Part shown: piece by piece, positions 8,171 to 17,980 of the stretch
Numbering within the stretch: position 1 is the stretch's first letter
Layout: each line of letters starts with the position of its first letter
Source of the DNA: an unicellular cyanobacterium SU3
GTDB taxonomy: Bacteria > Cyanobacteriota > Cyanobacteriia > Cyanobacteriales > Microcystaceae
Length of the DNA: 34,520 bases
NCBI GenBank assembly: GCA_002172675.1
Contig: NETF01000199.1
Coordinates: forward strand, 1-34,520
Reading direction: 5' to 3'
The notes under the pieces: generated by a model
Database searches by the model: none
What the model was told of the DNA's origin: nothing
What the model saw: the letters and a program-made list of their open reading frames with translations, nothing else
Translations under genes and position numbers: made by a program

Positions 8171-10168
8171 TTATGTTATCTCCTTGGATTTTAATTCATA
8201 GCCTTCTAAAATCAAATTATTTTCTTTTAAACAGTCTAACCATCCTAACAAACGATTAACTTTGCGATAATCCTCTAATAATCCTAATTCTTGTTCTTTT
8301 TCGGTTAATTGTTTAAAGGTATTATATAAAGGATAATCAGGAGACACTAAACTATCTTTATAATGTAAAATCGGGGGATTATCATCTTCTGCATAGTCAG
8401 AATAATTAACCCGTAAATTACTTAATTGTATTTGCATTCGACTGTGTAGCGTAGGATGGGGATTATTATCAAAATCGGGATAAAATAGATAAGTAATTTT
8501 AGGAATACGCCAAGAAAATTGGATAACATTGGCCTCTTCTAATCTTCCCACGGTACGACTAGCGCAACCTTCATATAAGCGTAATAAAGGTTCTAAATTT
8601 TCTAAAACACTAATATGAACAAGTAAGGAATTTTTCAGTTTTCTGCCAATAGTTTGCTTTTGGCAAAGTTGGGCAATAATTTCTAAATTTCCTACCTGAT
8701 ATAACATAGCATCAGCCATGATACAAGCACTATTATAACTACCAAATAATGACTTAATATCTTGTTTAACTTCTGGGGATAATTCCCGCATTTTTGGACG
8801 ACGATCAAATTGACTTAAAGCCAAATATAATAATAAATCTTGACGACGTTTTTCTGTAATCATATCCCAATCATCTTCTTGAGTAACTTGTAAAATAACT
8901 TTAAATGCTTGACGAAAACTTCTAAATTCTTCTTTTAATTGCGCTTCATTTTTTAATTCTCCTTTGGCTGGTAATCGTCCTCGTTCGGTGTAAAATTCCA
9001 TTAAGGGTTGTAAGAGGTATTCATAGTCTTCAAATCGTCTTACCTTGGTGATTAATCTAGGGGTTTTTGCTCTAGAATGAAAGCGAGAGGCGCGGAATTT
9101 TTGTGCCTCTAGTTCATCTCGAAAAACTAAATAAATACCTAATCCAATGGGGATCGAATCAACTTCTAAAACTTGATCAATATAAAATTTTAGTTCTTCT
9201 TGTTCATAATACTTTTGAAAGGTATTGCGATTGGTAATGATCCCATCTCCATAACCAATAACCCCTCTATCTCTATCATCTATTAAAACCTGGGCAGAAA
9301 CAATTAAAATTTTATTAGTTAATTCCCAAGCATTGACTAACGCTTCACGTCTTTCATTGATATCTTCGATAACATTAATAACATAACCCAAGTTAACAAT
9401 ATCAGCGATCGCTTTTTGATTATGGGGACAATAATAAGGGTCCCATCCTTTACTTTTATACCCTGCTTCGGCAATTCTTTCGACATCCCCCCCGTAACCA
9501 CATCCATAGTCAAAAAAGGTAGTTTCTTCATCAAATAATAATAAGTCTAATGCTAAACGAACGGGACGAGATAAGGTATTTCTAACAATAGCTGCTTTAT
9601 GTCTTTCGATTTGAATACTAACGGTTTCTTTCGGAAAAATAGGACAATGACAAGCTAAATAATGATCTTCAAAAATAATCCGTTTACGGTTTAATCTTTT
9701 TTCCCATTCTTGTTTAGTTCCAATGGGTACATTTAAAGTTAATAATTCTAATTTTTCCTCCATATTAGTTAAATGGGCAAACATTTCATAATTAGGATAA
9801 TCAGGAGTAATAAAGGTTTCTTTTCTATGAAGAATAGGAGGATTTTTTTTCTTTTTATAGTCCCAATAATTAACTTGTTCTGTATCTAGATTAACAACAA
9901 TACTTAAAGTCAATGCCGGATGAGGATTACTATCAAATTCTGGATAAAATAAATAAGAAATAATGGGTTTATCTGTATTGAATTTTATAATCGTTGCCCT
10001 TTCCACATCTTTCGTTAATCTGGCTTTTTTCTCGTATTCTCGTAAGACTACATTAAGAGAATTAATGGCACTAACATGAACATATAAAGCCGTTGGTAAC
10101 TGTTTACCAATAGAACTGTTTTTACAACAAGCAATAATTTCGCTAAAATAATCAGTGGTTAGGAACAT
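8171..10168 (-). CDS. DNA phosphorothioation-associated putative methyltransferase with duplicated flanking domain
   Basis: The centre matches the putative methyltransferase family found beside dnd (DNA sulfur modification) genes. Numbered from the ATG at 10168, it has IERHKAAIVRNTLSRPVRLALD, split here only as a landmark near 186-208. The SAM-binding FFDYGCGYGGD is at 218-228, GWDPYY at 241-246, and LGYVINVIEDINER follows. Strikingly, residues 8-143 and 495-631 are copies of one domain: YLFYPEFDSNPHP matches YLFYPDFDNNPHP, and NPPILH and PDYP recur in order. The enzyme therefore sits between two paralogous domains. An in-frame TTG at 10201 would add 11 residues and overlap the upstream Uma2 gene. 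The ATG lies 13 bases after that gene's stop, so the two are probably co-transcribed. The target base is unknown. Confidence 0.82.
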   Translation of the reverse strand: MFLTTDYFSEIIACCKNSSIGKQLPTALYVHVSAINSLNVVLREYEKKARLTKDVERATIIKFNTDKPIISYLFYPEFDSNPHPALTLSIVVNLDTEQVNYWDYKKKKNPPILHRKETFITPDYPNYEMFAHLTNMEEKLELLTLNVPIGTKQEWEKRLNRKRIIFEDHYLACHCPIFPKETVSIQIERHKAAIVRNTLSRPVRLALDLLLFDEETTFFDYGCGYGGDVERIAEAGYKSKGWDPYYCPHNQKAIADIVNLGYVINVIEDINERREALVNAWELTNKILIVSAQVLIDDRDRGVIGYGDGIITNRNTFQKYYEQEELKFYIDQVLEVDSIPIGLGIYLVFRDELEAQKFRASRFHSRAKTPRLITKVRRFEDYEYLLQPLMEFYTERGRLPAKGELKNEAQLKEEFRSFRQAFKVILQVTQEDDWDMITEKRRQDLLLYLALSQFDRRPKMRELSPEVKQDIKSLFGSYNSACIMADAMLYQVGNLEIIAQLCQKQTIGRKLKNSLLVHISVLENLEPLLRLYEGCASRTVGRLEEANVIQFSWRIPKITYLFYPDFDNNPHPTLHSRMQIQLSNLRVNYSDYAEDDNPPILHYKDSLVSPDYPLYNTFKQLTEKEQELGLLEDYRKVNRLLGWLDCLKENNLILEGYELKSKEIT

Positions 10169-10181
10169 AATAGTGGTTAAT

Positions 10182-10892
10182 CTATTCAGATAAATCTCCA
10201 AACTGTTGACGATATTTCTCTAACATAGATTCCATTTCAGATAACTTCTGTTTTTCTTGTTGTAATTCAATTTCTTTTTGTTGTAACTCGGCTTCTTTCT
10301 GTTTCAAAGCTGCGGCTAACTCTTCAGGAATTAATAATTTTTCTCCTGTATCTTCTCGATAAAAACAAATTAATTGACCTTCGACTTTTAACTGTAACTG
10401 TAACGGTTCGCTGCGGTTATCTTCAATGATTTCATAAAGATTATTTCTTAAACGATAACCTTTTAATTTTTCATGAATCCATTCCCCTTTAGGATCAAAT
10501 AACCAATATTCCTTAACCCCTAATTGTTCATATAATGTCTTTTTAAATTCTTGATCTTGACTTTTTGTCCCTGGAGAAGTCATCTCAAAAATAACTTGAG
10601 GAACCGCTTTTTCTTCCCATATTTTATAATTGTCCCTCCCCCCTGGTTCTACATTAAAAATCACCATAACATCAGGGGCAACTCGCATTCTTGGAAGTCC
10701 CTGACTATAATACATAAATTGATTAGCTAATACCGTCGCTTGTTGTCCCGATAAATACTGTTTGAGGACTTCTAACGTGGTTAAAATAGCATACAAATGA
10801 ATATAAGTTTCTGCCACAGGTTCACCATCTGAACTGGGATAAATAATATCAGTTTTAGAAACTGCTTCTAACATAAACTGTACACTCTTCAT
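10182..10892 (-). CDS. Uma2 family protein with C-terminal coiled coil
   Basis: A Uma2/DUF820 PD-(D/E)XK-fold protein of 236 residues. The core is visible as VIFEMTSPGTKSQDQEFKK, followed by LYEQLGVKEYWLFDPKGEW. Residues about 190-230 are a Gln/Glu/Lys heptad stretch (LKQKEAELQQKEIELQQEK) that should form a coiled coil, a common extension in this family. The ATG at 10892 lacks a strong ribosome binding site; an internal ATG at 10874 is possible. It stops just ahead of the methyltransferase start, suggesting one transcript. Whether it has nuclease activity against modified or unmodified DNA is speculation. Confidence 0.87.
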   Translation of the reverse strand: MKSVQFMLEAVSKTDIIYPSSDGEPVAETYIHLYAILTTLEVLKQYLSGQQATVLANQFMYYSQGLPRMRVAPDVMVIFNVEPGGRDNYKIWEEKAVPQVIFEMTSPGTKSQDQEFKKTLYEQLGVKEYWLFDPKGEWIHEKLKGYRLRNNLYEIIEDNRSEPLQLQLKVEGQLICFYREDTGEKLLIPEELAAALKQKEAELQQKEIELQQEKQKLSEMESMLEKYRQQFGDLSE

Positions 10893-11007: not shown

Positions 11008-11298
11008 ATGGCCATGAATGATCGTAAAAAACGTATTCTCGAACACTTAAAACAAAGTACAGACGGAACTCACTATATTTCCCCAAAAAAGACCTCTAAA
11101 CCCACACCAACCCCTCCTCCTATTCCTGAACCCACGCCGGAACCAAAACCAGTGGCAAAACCCAGTCTCAAACAGGAACGTAAGCAAAAAATTATGAATC
11201 ATGTAAACACCAGTAGCCAAAACTTTGGTAGTTTCTCTCTAAAAGATGATAATAAGAAAAAGAAAATTGAGGAGCATATTCGCAAAAGTTTAAGTTAA
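11008..11298 (+). CDS. Small basic protein with three repeats and a Pro-rich linker, 96 aa
   Basis: I do not recognise it. It has three copies of a short helical motif with consensus [RK]-K-x-[RK]-I-x-x-H-[LVI], at residues 6-14 (RKKRILEHL), 58-66 (RKQKIMNHV) and 83-91. A Pro/Glu/Lys-rich stretch (about 27-53) separates the first from the second. It is basic, soluble and signal-free. It is divergent from the Uma2 gene (115 bases between starts) and converges on the DndD-like ATPase gene, sharing a hairpin at the junction. The repeats suggest a multivalent binding protein, but there is no direct evidence. Confidence 0.75.
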   Translation: MAMNDRKKRILEHLKQSTDGTHYISPKKTSKPTPTPPPIPEPTPEPKPVAKPSLKQERKQKIMNHVNTSSQNFGSFSLKDDNKKKKIEEHIRKSLS

Positions 11299-11306
11299 TA
11301 ACCTTT

Positions 11307-11334
11307 GTAGAGATAATTGATTAATTATCTCTAC
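11307..11334. terminator. Bidirectional hairpin at convergent gene ends
   Basis: A perfect 12-base stem (GTAGAGATAATT paired with AATTATCTCTAC) with loop GATT sits 9 bases past the 96-aa gene stop. It overlaps the last codons of the ATPase gene. No long U-tract follows on either strand, so it may act as a folded end or weak terminator. Confidence 0.55.
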
Positions 11335-13390
11335 CAACATCTATAATTTCTGTGTATTCAAATTCATTCGGACTTTGTTTAACTAAAGGATAATCAACAC
11401 CATTAAGCAAAATACTATCTTGTTTACAGTCAGGTTTAGGAGAATAATAAACCAAAACATATTCTTTGCCAATGTAATCTTTTGTTTCTCCTTGAACTTC
11501 ACCGCGCCATTGTGTTTTTGTGACTAAAATAATTAATTGATTGGCTAATTTAGGAATTGATTTTGCTACTTGTCTACGATAAATTTCATCTAAACTACCA
11601 AAGGGAGAGTCCATAACAATAGGAAAGGTACTACTATCGGGTCCCATCAAAGTATTTTTATGACTCCACTTTCTCACACTATCAATAATTCCTCCAATGA
11701 AAGAAAGACTTAAAATTTGATTTTCTCCCGTTGAAGCTGCAACAGGAACCGCTATTCCTGATGTATTTTCAATTAGGTTTAACTCATAATTTGAGGTTAA
11801 GCGAGGAATATAAGGGGTAAAAGAGATAGCAGTAAAAATAGCTTGAACTCGTTTTTCTAATGAGAGACGAAACTGTTTTTCTAGACGACTTCTAACTTCA
11901 AGAAGTCTGTCCCTTGCTTCTGTAGATGCGTCCTTTCTCCGTTTAGCTAATATTTGCTTTTCTTCTTTTTGTTTCTGTTTAGTAATCTCTTTATCTAAGG
12001 TTTCTAATTGTTTTTCTAAGCTAGTTAATTGGTGTTGAATTCCTCCTTGTTCTAATTGTAATTCTCGGATTGTTTGATTAATTTTATCTAAATGTTCTTG
12101 TAACTTTTTGATGTCTTCATCAGGATAATTCCGAAACTTTTGATTAATCTCATCTAGTTCTATTTCAACTCTTGATAATTCTAGTCTAGCTTGTTCGAGT
12201 TTAGCTTGTTTTTCGTCTACATTTTCCCAAAAACTAATAACTTTTTCTTCCATCTCATGCACTTGAGATTCTAAGCGGATAGCAGATTCTTCTATGGCTG
12301 CTATTCCTGCTTTATCCATCCATTGTTTAACTTGTTGGTAATAATTATTTCCTTCAATTAATTTTTGACCACAAATACAGGTTTGGCGGTTTAATAATTG
12401 TTGTACAAATTGTTTTTTAATCCCACTAGGTAACTCTCCTTTTTGTCGTAAATCAGTAATAATGGTGTTAAATTTAGGAATAATATTACTCAAAAAGTTT
12501 AAGTAACCTTGACTTGATATTAACTGTTTAATTTGTTGTTTTAATTCTCTTATCTCATTTTTTAATTTAGCTTCTTGTTTATCAAGTTTTATTTTTAGAT
12601 TCTTTAACTGCTCATTACTACTTAAATTTATTAACTTATCTGATATTTCTTTGTGCTGTAGTTCTTGATTATTTAGAGTTTCTACAATCGTTTTCTTTTT
12701 ATCTTGTAAACTTTCTATTTTTTGTTCTAGTTTTGTTTTTTCTTTCAGCTTTTTTTTGATGTTAATATCTCCAATGGCTTTAAGTTCTTCTTCTAAGATT
12801 TTTTCTGCTTTTTTAAGATGATCAATAGAACGATCTAATACTTTTACCCCTAACAGTTCTTTTGTATCTTCAGCAATACGACTTTTATCATTACTCCGAA
12901 AAATATGGTCAATATGTTCCCCATCAAAAAAGAAATATTGATGTAAACTTTTGGGTAAAATACGGTTAATAATTTCATCTGGTTGTTGCGTCGGTGGATA
13001 CCATCGACCATCCTCTTCTGCTACCAACATAAATAATTGATTTTTGCTGTATTGAATTGTACCATTTTGATCTAAACAAGCATAACATTTTCGTTTAACT
13101 TGATAATGTTTATATTCATGTTCAAAATAAATTTCTACCCAACAATCTACCGCGTTTCCTATATCAGCTTGCATAATTGCTCGCTTATTAATTAACAATT
13201 CAGGCGAGGTAAACGCAGCCGTAAACTCTTCGTAGAAAACCCAAGTAAACGCATTTAATAACGTTGTTTTTCCTGAACCATTGTTACCATGAATAATCGT
13301 TGTGTTTTCTTCCCCAGAAGCCAGGCTTATTTCTGGAGTTTGACCATAAAATTGTCTAAAATTGCATAATTTAATCGATAATAATTTCAT
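11321..13390 (-). CDS. DndD-like Rad50/SMC-type ATPase
   Basis: A 689-residue ABC-type ATPase with the layout of DndD proteins of DNA phosphorothioation systems. The N-terminus FRQFYGQTPEISL leads to Walker A GNNGSGKT at 35-42, and YFFFDGEHID (152-161) is typical of the DndD group. Long coiled coils (about 185-290 and 365-480) flank a C-x-C turn, CICG at 338-341, a reduced version of the Rad50 zinc hook. The signature STGENQ (553-558) and Walker B FPIVMDSPFGSLDE (589-602) complete the site. Its ATG overlaps the stop of the upstream 57-aa gene (ATGA). DndB, DndC and DndE are not in this window, so it may serve another nucleic-acid or defence role. Confidence 0.82.
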   Translation of the reverse strand: MKLLSIKLCNFRQFYGQTPEISLASGEENTTIIHGNNGSGKTTLLNAFTWVFYEEFTAAFTSPELLINKRAIMQADIGNAVDCWVEIYFEHEYKHYQVKRKCYACLDQNGTIQYSKNQLFMLVAEEDGRWYPPTQQPDEIINRILPKSLHQYFFFDGEHIDHIFRSNDKSRIAEDTKELLGVKVLDRSIDHLKKAEKILEEELKAIGDINIKKKLKEKTKLEQKIESLQDKKKTIVETLNNQELQHKEISDKLINLSSNEQLKNLKIKLDKQEAKLKNEIRELKQQIKQLISSQGYLNFLSNIIPKFNTIITDLRQKGELPSGIKKQFVQQLLNRQTCICGQKLIEGNNYYQQVKQWMDKAGIAAIEESAIRLESQVHEMEEKVISFWENVDEKQAKLEQARLELSRVEIELDEINQKFRNYPDEDIKKLQEHLDKINQTIRELQLEQGGIQHQLTSLEKQLETLDKEITKQKQKEEKQILAKRRKDASTEARDRLLEVRSRLEKQFRLSLEKRVQAIFTAISFTPYIPRLTSNYELNLIENTSGIAVPVAASTGENQILSLSFIGGIIDSVRKWSHKNTLMGPDSSTFPIVMDSPFGSLDEIYRRQVAKSIPKLANQLIILVTKTQWRGEVQGETKDYIGKEYVLVYYSPKPDCKQDSILLNGVDYPLVKQSPNEFEYTEIIDVGRDN

Positions 13391-13560
13391 TGAATGACTT
13401 CTTTAATAATTTGAACAATATCATCATTAATATTTCGAGGCGATCGCTGAGATAACTTACTTTTTTCTAAGGATAAAACTCGTTCAATAATCTGAGAGAT
13501 TTCTGGGGATGCAGAGGTAATAGGTTCTTGAACTTGACTAACATTAACTTCTTCATTCAT
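13387..13560 (-). CDS. Small hypothetical protein coupled to the DndD-like ATPase, 57 aa
   Basis: The frame opens at 13641, but the ATG at 13560 is preferred. It is preceded by AGGA at eight bases and removes a hydrophobic leader that looks untranslated. The product (MNEEVNVSQVQEPI and onward) is acidic then basic, with two predicted helices and no known motif. Its TGA overlaps the ATG of the ATPase by four bases (ATGA), so translation is probably coupled and the two proteins may work together. I cannot assign a function. Confidence 0.65.
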   Translation of the reverse strand: MNEEVNVSQVQEPITSASPEISQIIERVLSLEKSKLSQRSPRNINDDIVQIIKEVIQ

Positions 13561-13769
13561 TAAGCTTTTCCTGTGAGATTGTTCAATTATAACCAGTTTA
13601 AATAAATTGTAAACATAATCAATTATCCTATTTCTTTTCAAAGCATAATTCTTAAGATTATTTTAAAATTCACCATTTCCTCACAATTAAAGACAATTTT
13701 AACCACCTTCTTGTCCTATAATACTTTTGAGCAGAGTATTATTACATAGCAGATAAGGCATAGATATCC

Positions 13770-15329: not shown

Positions 15330-16469
15330 TTAGGCGTTTAAGATGTCAGCTGTGGCTAAATCGAAGTAAAAGGTACTACCCTGGTCTAACTCTGAGTCAA
15401 CCCCTAGATGTCCACCATGTTGCTCAACAATTCGCTGACAGAGTGCCAAACCAATACCACTCCCCTCAACCCTTGTTTTACCGACTCGGGAGAATAGCTT
15501 AAAAATTTCAGACTGATCTTCTGATGGAATTCCAGGCCCATTATCAATGATTTGAAAGTAATAGCGATCGGCCCGTAACTCACTCATAACCATGACCCTA
15601 GGTGCTGTCGTCCCATTATGGATGATGGCGTTTTTAATTAAATTACTGACCAATTTCTCCAATAAATCTGCGTTACCTTGGACAACGGGTAGATGATTCC
15701 AATTAACCGACGCTTGGTGAACATCAATGATAGTTTGCAATTTATTCATCGCTTCTTCCATAACGAGATTCATATCCGTCGGCTCAAAGATAAGATTTTG
15801 TCGGGATTCAAGCTTGCTAAATTCTAATAGGGTAGTCAGGGTTTTGTTCATTTTGTGGGAAGTCCGCAGGCCCATCTCTACGATTGTTTGTTGCTGGTTT
15901 TCTAAAGGACTTCGTTCAAGTAAATCCAAGCTACCTGTCACCACATTGAGTGGGTTGCGTAGCTCATGAGCTACCACATGGCTAAAATTTTCTAGGGCTT
16001 GATTACTCTGGTGAAGTTGCGAGAGGGTGTCCCGTAGTTCAAACTGACGCTGACGATTGTTCAGACAAGTCCGCACAGTTGAATTAAACTCGCGACGCTT
16101 GAGTGGAATTTCTAGTAAAGTAATACTGCGCTGATGGCAGGTAGACTCGAACATACTCATGGAGCTTGAAAAATGGCGACAGTTCTTGAGCAAAAAAATG
16201 ACAGGAATATCAGACCATTTGGGCTGCTCATTTAAGCAGTCCACCAACTTTTCAAAATTGTGATCGAGGGATAACATCTCTTCGGTAATAATCACCAACC
16301 CAATTTCTGCTCGAATGGCAGTTACCACTGTTTCTATAGAGTCCGTCTCGAGCCAGGACTGTCCTTGGGTTTCGAGAAACTGCCCCATAACCTCAGCATT
16401 CTGTCTTAGTCGGGTTGCAATGACAATAGTGTCTGAAGAAAGCTCTTGAGTATCAGCACGTTTGTTCAT
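15330..16469 (-). CDS. Histidine kinase with degenerate receiver-like N-terminus, partner of the KaiC-like gene
   Basis: A 379-residue cytosolic sensor kinase. Residues about 12-135 form a receiver-like fold without a clear phospho-acceptor Asp; TEEMLSLDH and QPKWSDIPVIFLL are typical of kinases coded beside KaiC-like genes. A short coiled linker leads to the HisKA domain, with H168 in HVVAHELRNPL as the predicted phosphorylated residue. The HATPase domain has an N box (NLIKNAIIHN), a G1 box (DNGPGIP) and a G2 box (GSGIGLALCQ). No transmembrane or PAS domain is seen. Its ATG overlaps the original KaiC-like stop by four bases (ATGA), so it was translated together with that gene and probably reads its output. 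No response regulator is adjacent. Confidence 0.9.
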   Translation of the reverse strand: MNKRADTQELSSDTIVIATRLRQNAEVMGQFLETQGQSWLETDSIETVVTAIRAEIGLVIITEEMLSLDHNFEKLVDCLNEQPKWSDIPVIFLLKNCRHFSSSMSMFESTCHQRSITLLEIPLKRREFNSTVRTCLNNRQRQFELRDTLSQLHQSNQALENFSHVVAHELRNPLNVVTGSLDLLERSPLENQQQTIVEMGLRTSHKMNKTLTTLLEFSKLESRQNLIFEPTDMNLVMEEAMNKLQTIIDVHQASVNWNHLPVVQGNADLLEKLVSNLIKNAIIHNGTTAPRVMVMSELRADRYYFQIIDNGPGIPSEDQSEIFKLFSRVGKTRVEGSGIGLALCQRIVEQHGGHLGVDSELDQGSTFYFDLATADILNA

Positions 16470-16708
16470 AATGGGTCTTCGTTTTTGAGTTCGCCAAGAT
16501 AGCTAGGAATACCTGAAAGTATTCCCGAAAATTCTTCGAGGGGTTCACCAATACTAACGCCAGTTTCATCTAAATACACTTCGCGAATTTGCTTTTCGTG
16601 TCCACCGTAACGTTTTTTATACACGCCGATCGCTCGATGCAGCGCACCCCGTGCTTCAAAATGCCGTAGCAACAGCACTGCGTCAGCCATGTAGCTGATA
16701 TCGATCTC
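16466..16708 (-). pseudogene. C-terminal part of the KaiC-like gene beyond an in-frame TAG
   Basis: Right after the TAG at 16711-16709 the same frame continues with EIDISYMADAVLLLRHFEA and on to EPLEEFSGIL. This is the usual C-terminal tail of KaiC-family proteins, ending at 16466. The 80 sense codons plus the 423 upstream give about 504 residues including the stop position, the normal length for the family. An ATG at 16690 could restart translation, but it lies inside the conserved SYxAD motif and is an unlikely natural start. The piece is therefore a severed end, unless the amber codon is read through. Confidence 0.8.
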
Positions 16709-17980
16709 CTATTTTAGCCGATTACCGATGATCCCATGTTGCGCCACGACTAATATTGTCAAAACATTCTGCTGGTTTAGGGTGATCAATAAGTCATGTA
16801 GTTGAGTAATGAACTGATTATTGCTCGGCATAAAATTGGCATAACCCGTCAAGCTATCAATAAAGACAACCTTTGCTCCCCATTCGTTGACCTCTTTGCT
16901 AATCAGATAGGTGAATTTTCCTGGACTGCTGTTGCTTAGCCCTAATTCACGAATCCGAATTTTGTCTGAATAGTTTGACGGATCTAAGTTGATTTGCAGT
17001 CCTCGCGATCGCTCTAAAAAGGTAGTTGCCAACTCATCAAAGAGAAAGACACTAGCTTTGCCTCCTTGACGGATAAAGTTATGAACAAACAAGCTGCCAA
17101 GGGTTGTCTTTCCCGTCCCTGACGGCCCCATAATCAAGCAGGAAGTACCTGTTAATAAAGATCCGCCAAGAAGTTTGTCAAAGGATTCGACTCCGCTCGA
17201 AATAGGCTGATGAGATACCTGGTAGGAACTATAAATATCGATTAAGAAGTCACAAGACTGATTAGGAAGGGGATAAACCTTCATACCCTGATCAGTAATC
17301 TCCATATCGTGAATTCCTGAATGAAAACCACTACCTCGCATTTTGGACAGTTGTATATGGCGGTATTCTTGGCCGTAATTGGTCGTCAATTTAGATAGGG
17401 TAATAATGCCGTGGACAATGGAGACCAGTTCGTGATCCCCAGAGACAACCTCTTGAACATTGGTCAATAGTACGGTGATGTTGCGGTTACACAGATAGTC
17501 TTGGAGCAGTAGTAAGTTACGCCGATAAACAATGATGTCGTGGGCAAGTATTCGCAGATAGGAAATACCGTCGAACAACACTCGTTGAGGCTGCACTGCT
17601 TCAATAACCTGTGTAAAGTGAGTCATCGTCTCTTCTAGCTCGATCTCAGACGTATCAAAAACGGTCTGTTGTTGTCCAACAGTCGTCTCAATCGCTTGTG
17701 CAGTGGTAAATTCTTCAAAAATCATACCCCTCGTATCAGTACCTACTGACGCGGCCATCTGCTCCAGACTTTCTAGGCGTTGACATAGGGTAATACACAA
17801 AACCTTTTCCCCTGCCTGCACCCCTGCTTCGAGAAAATTGAGTCCTAAAATGGTTTTTCCTGTGCCGGGCGCACCATTGACAAGGTAAATTTCTCCTTCA
17901 GGCAAACCACCATGAGTTATTTCGTCTAGCCCCGAAATGCCAGTTGAGGCTCTTCTTAGCTCGTTGTTAGCGTTTTCCAT
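16709..17980 (-). CDS. KaiC-like double-domain ATPase, ended early by TAG
   Basis: A RecA-fold, KaiC-family protein with two ATPase domains. The first has Walker A GAPGTGKT at 36-43; the second has GPSGTGKT at 285-292 and Walker B VVFIDSL at 371-377. In KaiC the catalytic glutamates follow strand 2. Here the first domain reads TLCQ (64-67) at that place, with no Glu, while the second keeps DE (315-316). The first domain may thus be a poor ATPase. The frame ends at 423 with TAG although the rest of domain 2 follows in frame. No kaiA or kaiB is nearby, so it is a KaiC-like paralogue and not the core clock gene. It forms an operon with the histidine kinase. Confidence 0.85.
   Translation of the reverse strand: MENANNELRRASTGISGLDEITHGGLPEGEIYLVNGAPGTGKTILGLNFLEAGVQAGEKVLCITLCQRLESLEQMAASVGTDTRGMIFEEFTTAQAIETTVGQQQTVFDTSEIELEETMTHFTQVIEAVQPQRVLFDGISYLRILAHDIIVYRRNLLLLQDYLCNRNITVLLTNVQEVVSGDHELVSIVHGIITLSKLTTNYGQEYRHIQLSKMRGSGFHSGIHDMEITDQGMKVYPLPNQSCDFLIDIYSSYQVSHQPISSGVESFDKLLGGSLLTGTSCLIMGPSGTGKTTLGSLFVHNFIRQGGKASVFLFDELATTFLERSRGLQINLDPSNYSDKIRIRELGLSNSSPGKFTYLISKEVNEWGAKVVFIDSLTGYANFMPSNNQFITQLHDLLITLNQQNVLTILVVAQHGIIGNRLK

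Follow-up and report, generated by a model that had tools for sequence, protein, structure and literature searches.

A putative phosphorothioation-associated methyltransferase with a duplicated domain in the unicellular cyanobacterium SU3

The locus and the repeated domain

We describe a gene of the unicellular cyanobacterium SU3 that encodes a putative S-adenosylmethionine (SAM) methyltransferase in which two copies of one domain stand on either side of the methyltransferase core. The gene lies on contig NETF01000199.1 of assembly GCA_002172675.1, positions 1 to 34,520; this whole stretch of 34,520 nucleotides is referred to below as the window. The gene order is PbeB-like, PbeC, Uma2, methyltransferase (Table 1). 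The methyltransferase open reading frame (ORF) spans positions 8171-10201 of the minus strand, with the Uma2 ORF (10182-10892, same strand) directly upstream, and the ATG at 10168, 13 bp past the Uma2 stop, is the likely start of the protein; residues are numbered from this ATG unless stated otherwise. The protein is a member of the NCBIfam family TIGR04096 (dnd_rel_methyl, "DNA phosphorothioation-associated putative methyltransferase"), which it matches with 854.2 bits (curated cut-off 150) over model positions 1-476 of 478.

Table 1. Features of the methyltransferase locus and its neighbours (positions in the window)
Feature	Positions	Strand	Remarks
TIGR04096 methyltransferase, 665 residues from ATG	8171..10168	-	ORF extends to TTG at 10201; 854 bits to TIGR04096
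N copy of repeated domain, residues 10-143 of ATG form	9740..10141	-	
NPPILHRKE, site-A core motif, residues 109-117	9818..9844	-	
Class I SAM methyltransferase core, residues 186-372, without canonical DNA base-methyltransferase catalytic motif	9053..9613	-	
SAM motif I FDYGCGYGGD, residues 219-228	9485..9514	-	
Weak HNH_repeat (PF18780) likeness	8714..8812	-	E 1.9e-4, 22.2 bits, under cut-off 26
C copy of repeated domain, residues 496-631	8276..8683	-	
Site-B helix LLRLYEGCASRTVGR, residues 528-542	8543..8587	-	
NPPILHYKD, C-copy counterpart of site-A motif, residues 597-605	8354..8380	-	
Uma2 protein, upstream of methyltransferase	10182..10892	-	Pfam PF05685, E 4.9e-18; apparently a neighbour, not a partner, of the methyltransferase
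PbeC (CxC-clade, DndD-like) ABC ATPase	11321..13390	-	PADLOC PDLC02753, 984 bits
Small ORF overlapping PbeC start, PbeB-like by position and similarity	13387..13641	-	

A first-pass annotation of this DNA had claimed homology between residues of about 8-143 and 495-631, and the repeat is indeed found, at residues 10-143 and 496-631. A BLASTP comparison of the N-terminal copy (N copy) with the C-terminal copy (C copy), using residues 1-170 against 481-676 in numbering from the TTG, yields 46% identity (62/136) and an E value of 4e-40 for the pair. The local alignment of the two copies scores 303, far above 1000 shuffles (mean 31, maximum 58), and a chance repeat is rejected. The segments YLFYPEFDSNPHP/YLFYPDFDNNPHP, NPPILH and PDYP keep their serial order in both copies, with FDYGCGYGGD in between, just as the annotation had described; the N copy reads NPPILHRKE where the C copy has NPPILHYKD, a difference that is systematic across relatives. 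Taken by itself, the N copy matches TIGR04096 model positions 304-476 with 156 bits. No Pfam family was found in a search with the N domain (best E 0.087), and profile searches of the PDB gave no convincing relative: the whole protein matched mostly SAM folds, with a best E of 0.022, and the N domain matched at best part of an amino-acid decarboxylase (E 0.0075). Among the ORFs of the loci searched, the domain was found on its own in two cases only, both of them pieces of interrupted methyltransferase genes.

TIGR04096 matches above the cut-off occur in 83 of 292 cyanobacterial genomes. From 82 of these 83 genomes we collected 84 loci, the window included; the remaining genome (G159) holds the methyltransferase only in fragments and contributes none. 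By our test the 84 loci comprise 65 two-copy and 19 one-copy proteins, and the possibility that the repeat is private to the window protein is rejected. The non-cyanobacterial set consists of the best 80 of at least 554 relatives found, and 78 of these 80 loci match the two-copy query over at least 600 residues. Within cyanobacterial flanks of about 10 kb per side or less, dnd genes accompany 17 of the 19 one-copy genes (intact or not), while the flanks of the 65 two-copy genes contain dnd genes in seven cases, ssp genes in five and neither in 53. One genome (G197) has both forms, a two-copy gene by sspB and sspC (L167) and a one-copy gene by dndBCDE (L168).

Some members are longer than the window protein. 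The alignment designated A2 lacks 13 of 82 reference rows, namely partial L112, L117 and L135, the ParB fusion L148, and nine full-length rows omitted to keep the set small (L083, L086, L087, L092, L103, L109, L113, L120 and L125); the interrupted L105 and L131 stand outside the 82. Twelve of the 70 rows of A2 have at least 790 residues and possess an additional C-terminal region. This region carries an HAAHELN...ACDF stretch in L038, L062 and L143, which may resemble M15-type peptidases; the exact ACDF is missing from the other 11 long rows, and the long members L129 and L133 have no Pfam match beyond the methyltransferase.

Partition of conserved sites between the N and C copies

The conservation of the domain can be described by two groups of residues: 1) site A, which consists of K22, Y29, K62, S89, N109, R115, E117 and G150 (eight residues), and 2) site B, which consists of the R, C, G and R of the LRLYEGCASRTxGR helix (four residues). 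In the 65 two-copy cyanobacterial proteins, the N copy retains on average 7.94 of the eight site-A residues (always 7 or 8) compared to 2.85 in the C copy (0 to 6), and the relationship is reversed for site B, with 0.32 of four residues in the N copy and 3.94 in the C copy. HRK[ED] is present in 65/65 N copies, and the full NPP[ILV]LHRKE in 3/65 C copies. The overall divergence of the copies is equal (mean pairwise identity 0.535 for N and 0.536 for C); at least 95% conservation is reached by 41 columns in N and 18 in C, seven of them common to both, and the corresponding numbers of 95%-conserved columns among 35 representatives are 38 and 15. Both sites are kept in 17 intact one-copy cyanobacterial proteins (A 8.0/8, B 3.88/4), which carry a weight below 17 because their mean identity is 0.73. 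These are the 19 one-copy proteins minus L045, which has no intact N copy and a degenerate C copy, and L054, whose N-terminal part is unreadable as the domain.

A further 69 members, 66 of them from named non-cyanobacterial genome records and three from viral contigs, likewise differ between the copies in the residues that they keep. In their N copies six of the eight site-A residues are invariant, position 62 is K in 62 members and R in seven, and S89 is S in 67; in their C copies L529, R530 and Y532 are each present in 68 and G541 in 66. Judged by this conservation, the two domains are non-equivalent, with two conserved sites divided between them, and the simplest reading is that one two-site domain was duplicated and that each copy would have retained one of the sites.

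In an unrooted tree of the domain, one-copy members take a position intermediate between the clade of N copies and that of C copies. The branch leading to the proteobacterial C copies is long, and 38 N copies from cyanobacterial and other members lie on one side of a 99/95 branch. The cyanobacterial one-copy members lie among two-copy forms in the tree of the core, likewise unrooted. The duplication probably predates the split of the two groups, unless the gene passed between phyla later; such a transfer of a two-copy gene would likewise group the N copies.

The first-pass annotation had suggested, from the two copies, recognition of a two-fold or two-site DNA target and, from the Uma2 gene, a possible modification-plus-nuclease pair. 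This reading, in which two equivalent DNA-binding copies and a cognate nuclease form a two-gene restriction-modification system, draws on the duplication of the domain and on the position of the Uma2 gene, which does lie just upstream of the methyltransferase in the window and in G105, the nearest relative examined. The different residue sets kept by the N and C copies argue against two equal half-site readers, and two equivalent DNA readers are rejected on this ground for cyanobacterial and other members alike. A Uma2 gene lies within 300 bp of the methyltransferase in 9 of the 84 cyanobacterial loci, representing roughly four clades, and its placement varies: it is upstream in two (the window and G105), downstream and codirectional in six (five genomes of one genus and G213) and convergent in one (G091). 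A profile that we built up from cyanobacterial Uma2 sequences, and that could overlook distant ones, detected any Uma2 in 1 of the 80 non-cyanobacterial loci. The host genome alone has 88 Uma2 matches, or about one per 64 kb. A conserved Uma2-methyltransferase partnership is rejected on the basis of these counts. The linkage is nearly but not strictly absent from all relatives, as G105 keeps PbeC-Uma2-methyltransferase. We consider the combined reading very improbable; the window Uma2 more plausibly goes with PbeC, or is background, than partners the methyltransferase.

Association with phosphorothioation genes and the methyl acceptor

The family name and the annotation both point to DNA phosphorothioation (PT), and this link is well supported. 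Counting matches above curated cut-offs in the 292 cyanobacterial genomes, the methyltransferase is present in 72 of the 73 DndC-bearing genomes (the exception is G233), and DndC in 72 of the 83 methyltransferase genomes. Fisher's test gives p 3e-55 over the phylum sample and p 8e-6 within the order of the window (71 genomes with both, 5 with methyltransferase only, 1 with DndC only, 6 with neither), both uncorrected for relatedness. High-score PbeC overlaps with the methyltransferase equally (72 both, 11 methyltransferase only, 1 PbeC only), so that co-occurrence alone cannot separate DndC from PbeC. Eight of the 11 methyltransferase genomes without DndC show other PT genes: SspD in G004, G076 and G133, DndC-like genes below the cut-off (E 1e-37 to 1e-39) adjoining the methyltransferase in G011, G060 and G170, and SspB and SspC sequences, partly pieces, near it in G093 and G280. 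In the host, DndC (C165:16190) and DndD (C165:18521) are on another contig than the methyltransferase. The PT-related genes of this 208-contig assembly are scattered, with dndC and dndD on C165, a PbeA homologue on C173, and PbeC and the methyltransferase on C199.

Outside cyanobacteria, dnd or ssp modification genes flank the methyltransferase in 60 of the 80 loci (flanks of 10 kb or less), L136 being counted on a weak SspC match alone, and any PT-related gene is found in 65. Eight of the 20 loci without flanking dnd or ssp genes are on pieces shorter than 7.4 kb, and a genome search for 11 of the 20 detected DndC or SspD elsewhere in 10. The methyltransferase is thus tied to both PT chemistries, Dnd and Ssp.

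The core has motif I in the form DYG[CS]GxGxD in all 84 cyanobacterial proteins, FDYGCGYGGD in the window protein. The window protein has no ParB and no N6_N4 methylase domain in Pfam. The Pfam family Methyltransf_23 is matched at E <= 0.1 by 69 of 70 family members, all but the window protein. Relatives on predicted viral contigs have a different domain context. In L149, on a predicted viral contig (9488-10687), a TIGR04096-like core is fused to a ParB domain, with a PAPS reductase gene downstream of it; in L150 there is a match of equal length. In L148 (106-2016) the core stands between ParB-like and N6_N4 DNA methylase domains, and the viral contigs L152 (9950-10465) and L153 carry a minimal core with a DndB homologue nearby. 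As evidence from context, these viral arrangements favour DNA as the substrate.

Our interpretation is that the window protein may be an accessory SAM methyltransferase of PT systems that acts on DNA by non-canonical chemistry, a proposal to which we give an even chance; the proposition that the methyl acceptor is DNA we consider to be equally balanced. In this mechanism the site A and site B modules would direct the enzyme towards the PT machinery or towards DNA that bears PT. Site A, which is basic and polar (K22, Y29, H31, K62, S89, N109, H114, R115, K116, E117), may form a pocket for a ligand or for catalysis, which perhaps accepts the (thio)phosphate backbone, and site B may serve as an interface. 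Methylation of DNA by the core would follow a chemistry unlike that of the classical amino- or C5-methyltransferases, and in the host the protein would work in trans with the dndC and dndD of the other contig.

Several observations weigh against this interpretation. The motif [DNS]PP[FYW] of classical N6-adenine and N4-cytosine amino-methyltransferases is found in 0/84 cyanobacterial proteins and the C5-cytosine methyltransferase motif PC[QN] in 0/84 cores, the window included in both cases, and the family that the core resembles, Methyltransf_23, is a general one. Sites A and B were picked after inspecting the cyanobacterial alignment. Outside cyanobacteria the site-B residues C48 and R54 (C535 and R542) are not general, with C in 39/69 and D or E in place of R in 67/69, and the only two actinobacterial one-copy proteins available keep 7/8 of site A with 4/4 (L060) or 2/4 (L061) of site B. 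No PT gene was found for the methyltransferase genomes G070 and G016; G159 holds the methyltransferase only in fragments, SspD not having been searched for there; and both DndC and SspD are absent from the genome of L130. To our knowledge, known PT hosts such as Salmonella Cerro 87 function without the methyltransferase gene. The literature searched yielded no experimental study of any TIGR04096 member and no mention of the family number.

A further point of this kind is the methylome of Synechocystis 6803, a strain whose plasmid pSYSM carries a homologue (L035) in the vicinity of sspB and of a short sspC ORF that adjoins a LAGLIDADG gene. According to PMC6560206, the five methylated sites of this strain were assigned to cognate enzymes; the word pSYSM does not occur in that paper. 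The SspC ORF of this strain has 570 residues compared to 1172, and there is no SspD on the plasmid; the PT operon looks incomplete, which makes the counter-evidence from the methylome weak. None of the five cognate enzymes is known to be the product of the pSYSM gene.

Alternatively, the methyl group might go to a protein component of the PT machinery, to an RNA or to a small molecule. The enzyme would then regulate PT modification itself or the defence that follows from it, with the twin domains as protein-interaction modules. The likeness of the core to a general class I family without DNA base-methyltransferase motifs agrees with this, as does the fact that the family accompanies two different PT machineries, Dnd and Ssp; in addition, L115, L138 and L143 adjoin FGH-type restriction genes with no PT-modification genes in the flank. 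The viral fusions to ParB and DNA methylase domains, which suggest DNA modification, speak against it, and we regard this alternative as somewhat unlikely. A more radical possibility is that the phosphorothioate itself is methylated (S- or O-methyl), creating a composite sulfur-methyl backbone mark or removing a negative charge. The almost constant presence of the gene alongside DndC in the cyanobacterial genomes sampled, the lack of a base-methyltransferase catalytic motif and a basic polar site A that would suit a phosphate are all consistent with such chemistry. We found no precedent for it in the literature searched, and methylated phosphorothioate triesters may be labile; we consider it quite improbable.

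In the most far-reaching reading, PT bacteria, including nearly all dnd cyanobacteria, might carry a further methyl mark, so far undetected, on the PT linkage or next to it. This enzyme would write the mark, with site A as a PT reader inside the writer, and the duplication would have allowed the two functions of a single ancestral domain to specialise within the protein. We judge this reading unlikely. Work on PT modification has dealt with DndABCDE or SspABCD together with a restriction module. The methyltransferase, which goes along with both PT systems and is present in 72 of 73 DndC genomes of the cyanobacterial sample, is mentioned neither in section 16 nor in the methyltransferase and methylase passages of the 2024 reappraisal (PMC10853773), nor in the corresponding passages of the SspFGH paper (PMC8092258). 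It is an old puzzle that PT fills a small part of the available sites and yet acts as a recognition tag (PMC8053081), and the methyltransferase could bear on this partial occupancy if it is true that it marks DNA. The division of the sites between the copies supplies the exact residues to test.

As far as the literature searched tells, 1) the division of the sites between the copies and the commonness of the two-copy architecture in the sets examined, 2) the near-obligate pairing with DndC among the cyanobacterial genomes sampled and the association with Dnd and Ssp, and 3) the core fusions on viral contigs are new here. The family was previously known by name only, and the observation of a duplicated domain was right.

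The PbeC neighbourhood and comparison with known systems

The PbeC protein of the window scores 143 bits against the DndD model, which is under that model's cut-off. The PbeB-like ORF shares 49-74% identity over 54-63 residues with the ORFs that precede PbeC in L039, L238, L246 and L247. A codirectional Uma2 gene is located within 300 bp downstream of PbeC in 14 of the 30 highest-scoring cyanobacterial PbeC loci (L219-L248); all 14 belong to family f5 (six genera) and therefore represent few independent events. Uma2 is also close downstream of PbeC in L046 (f10) and in L050 (f22, PbeC in pieces); in G105 it follows PbeC at a distance of some 420 bp. Uma2 is possibly an alternative nuclease of PbeABCD systems. 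The PbeC-adjacent Uma2 genes look like different subtypes, judging from the first residues of L219 and L246.

Three side observations concern other genes. A small basic proline-rich ORF of 96 residues (11008-11298, plus strand) is convergent with PbeC and has a counterpart with 64% identity at the equivalent position in G105; it has no PHROG match. A histidine kinase adjoins a KaiC-like double-ATPase gene at 15330-17980 of the window, unrelated to the methyltransferase finding. On a Picosynechococcus plasmid (L063:606-776), a hypothetical protein is labelled ACT-82 beta-lactamase by PLSDB at 100% identity; the ORF has only 56 residues, and the label is likely false.

With the PbeABCD/CxC-ABC ATPase system (PMC6459918, PMC10853773) the window shares PbeC, two genes upstream of the methyltransferase, and the PbeB-like ORF. 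It differs in that PbeA (HKD nuclease-SF2 helicase) is absent from the locus: a search with a 340-residue piece of a PbeC-neighbouring helicase matched C173, where the homologue lies, and more weakly C180 and C203, with no match on the contig of the window. Canonical DndE queries found nothing in the window, PbeD (the DndE cognate) itself not having been used as a query. L148 and L149, which have a TIGR04096-like core, match the ParB-DNA methylase phage proteins of phrog_498; the window protein differs in matching no PHROG. The one-copy Dnd-linked cyanobacterial members (483-528 residues; for example L057, L161 and L168) are without the N copy and share the core and the domain, with both sites conserved. 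The TIGR04096 model, with 478 positions, covers the methyltransferase and one domain; the window protein is like it in the SAM core and the C-terminal domain and differs from it by an additional N-terminal copy.

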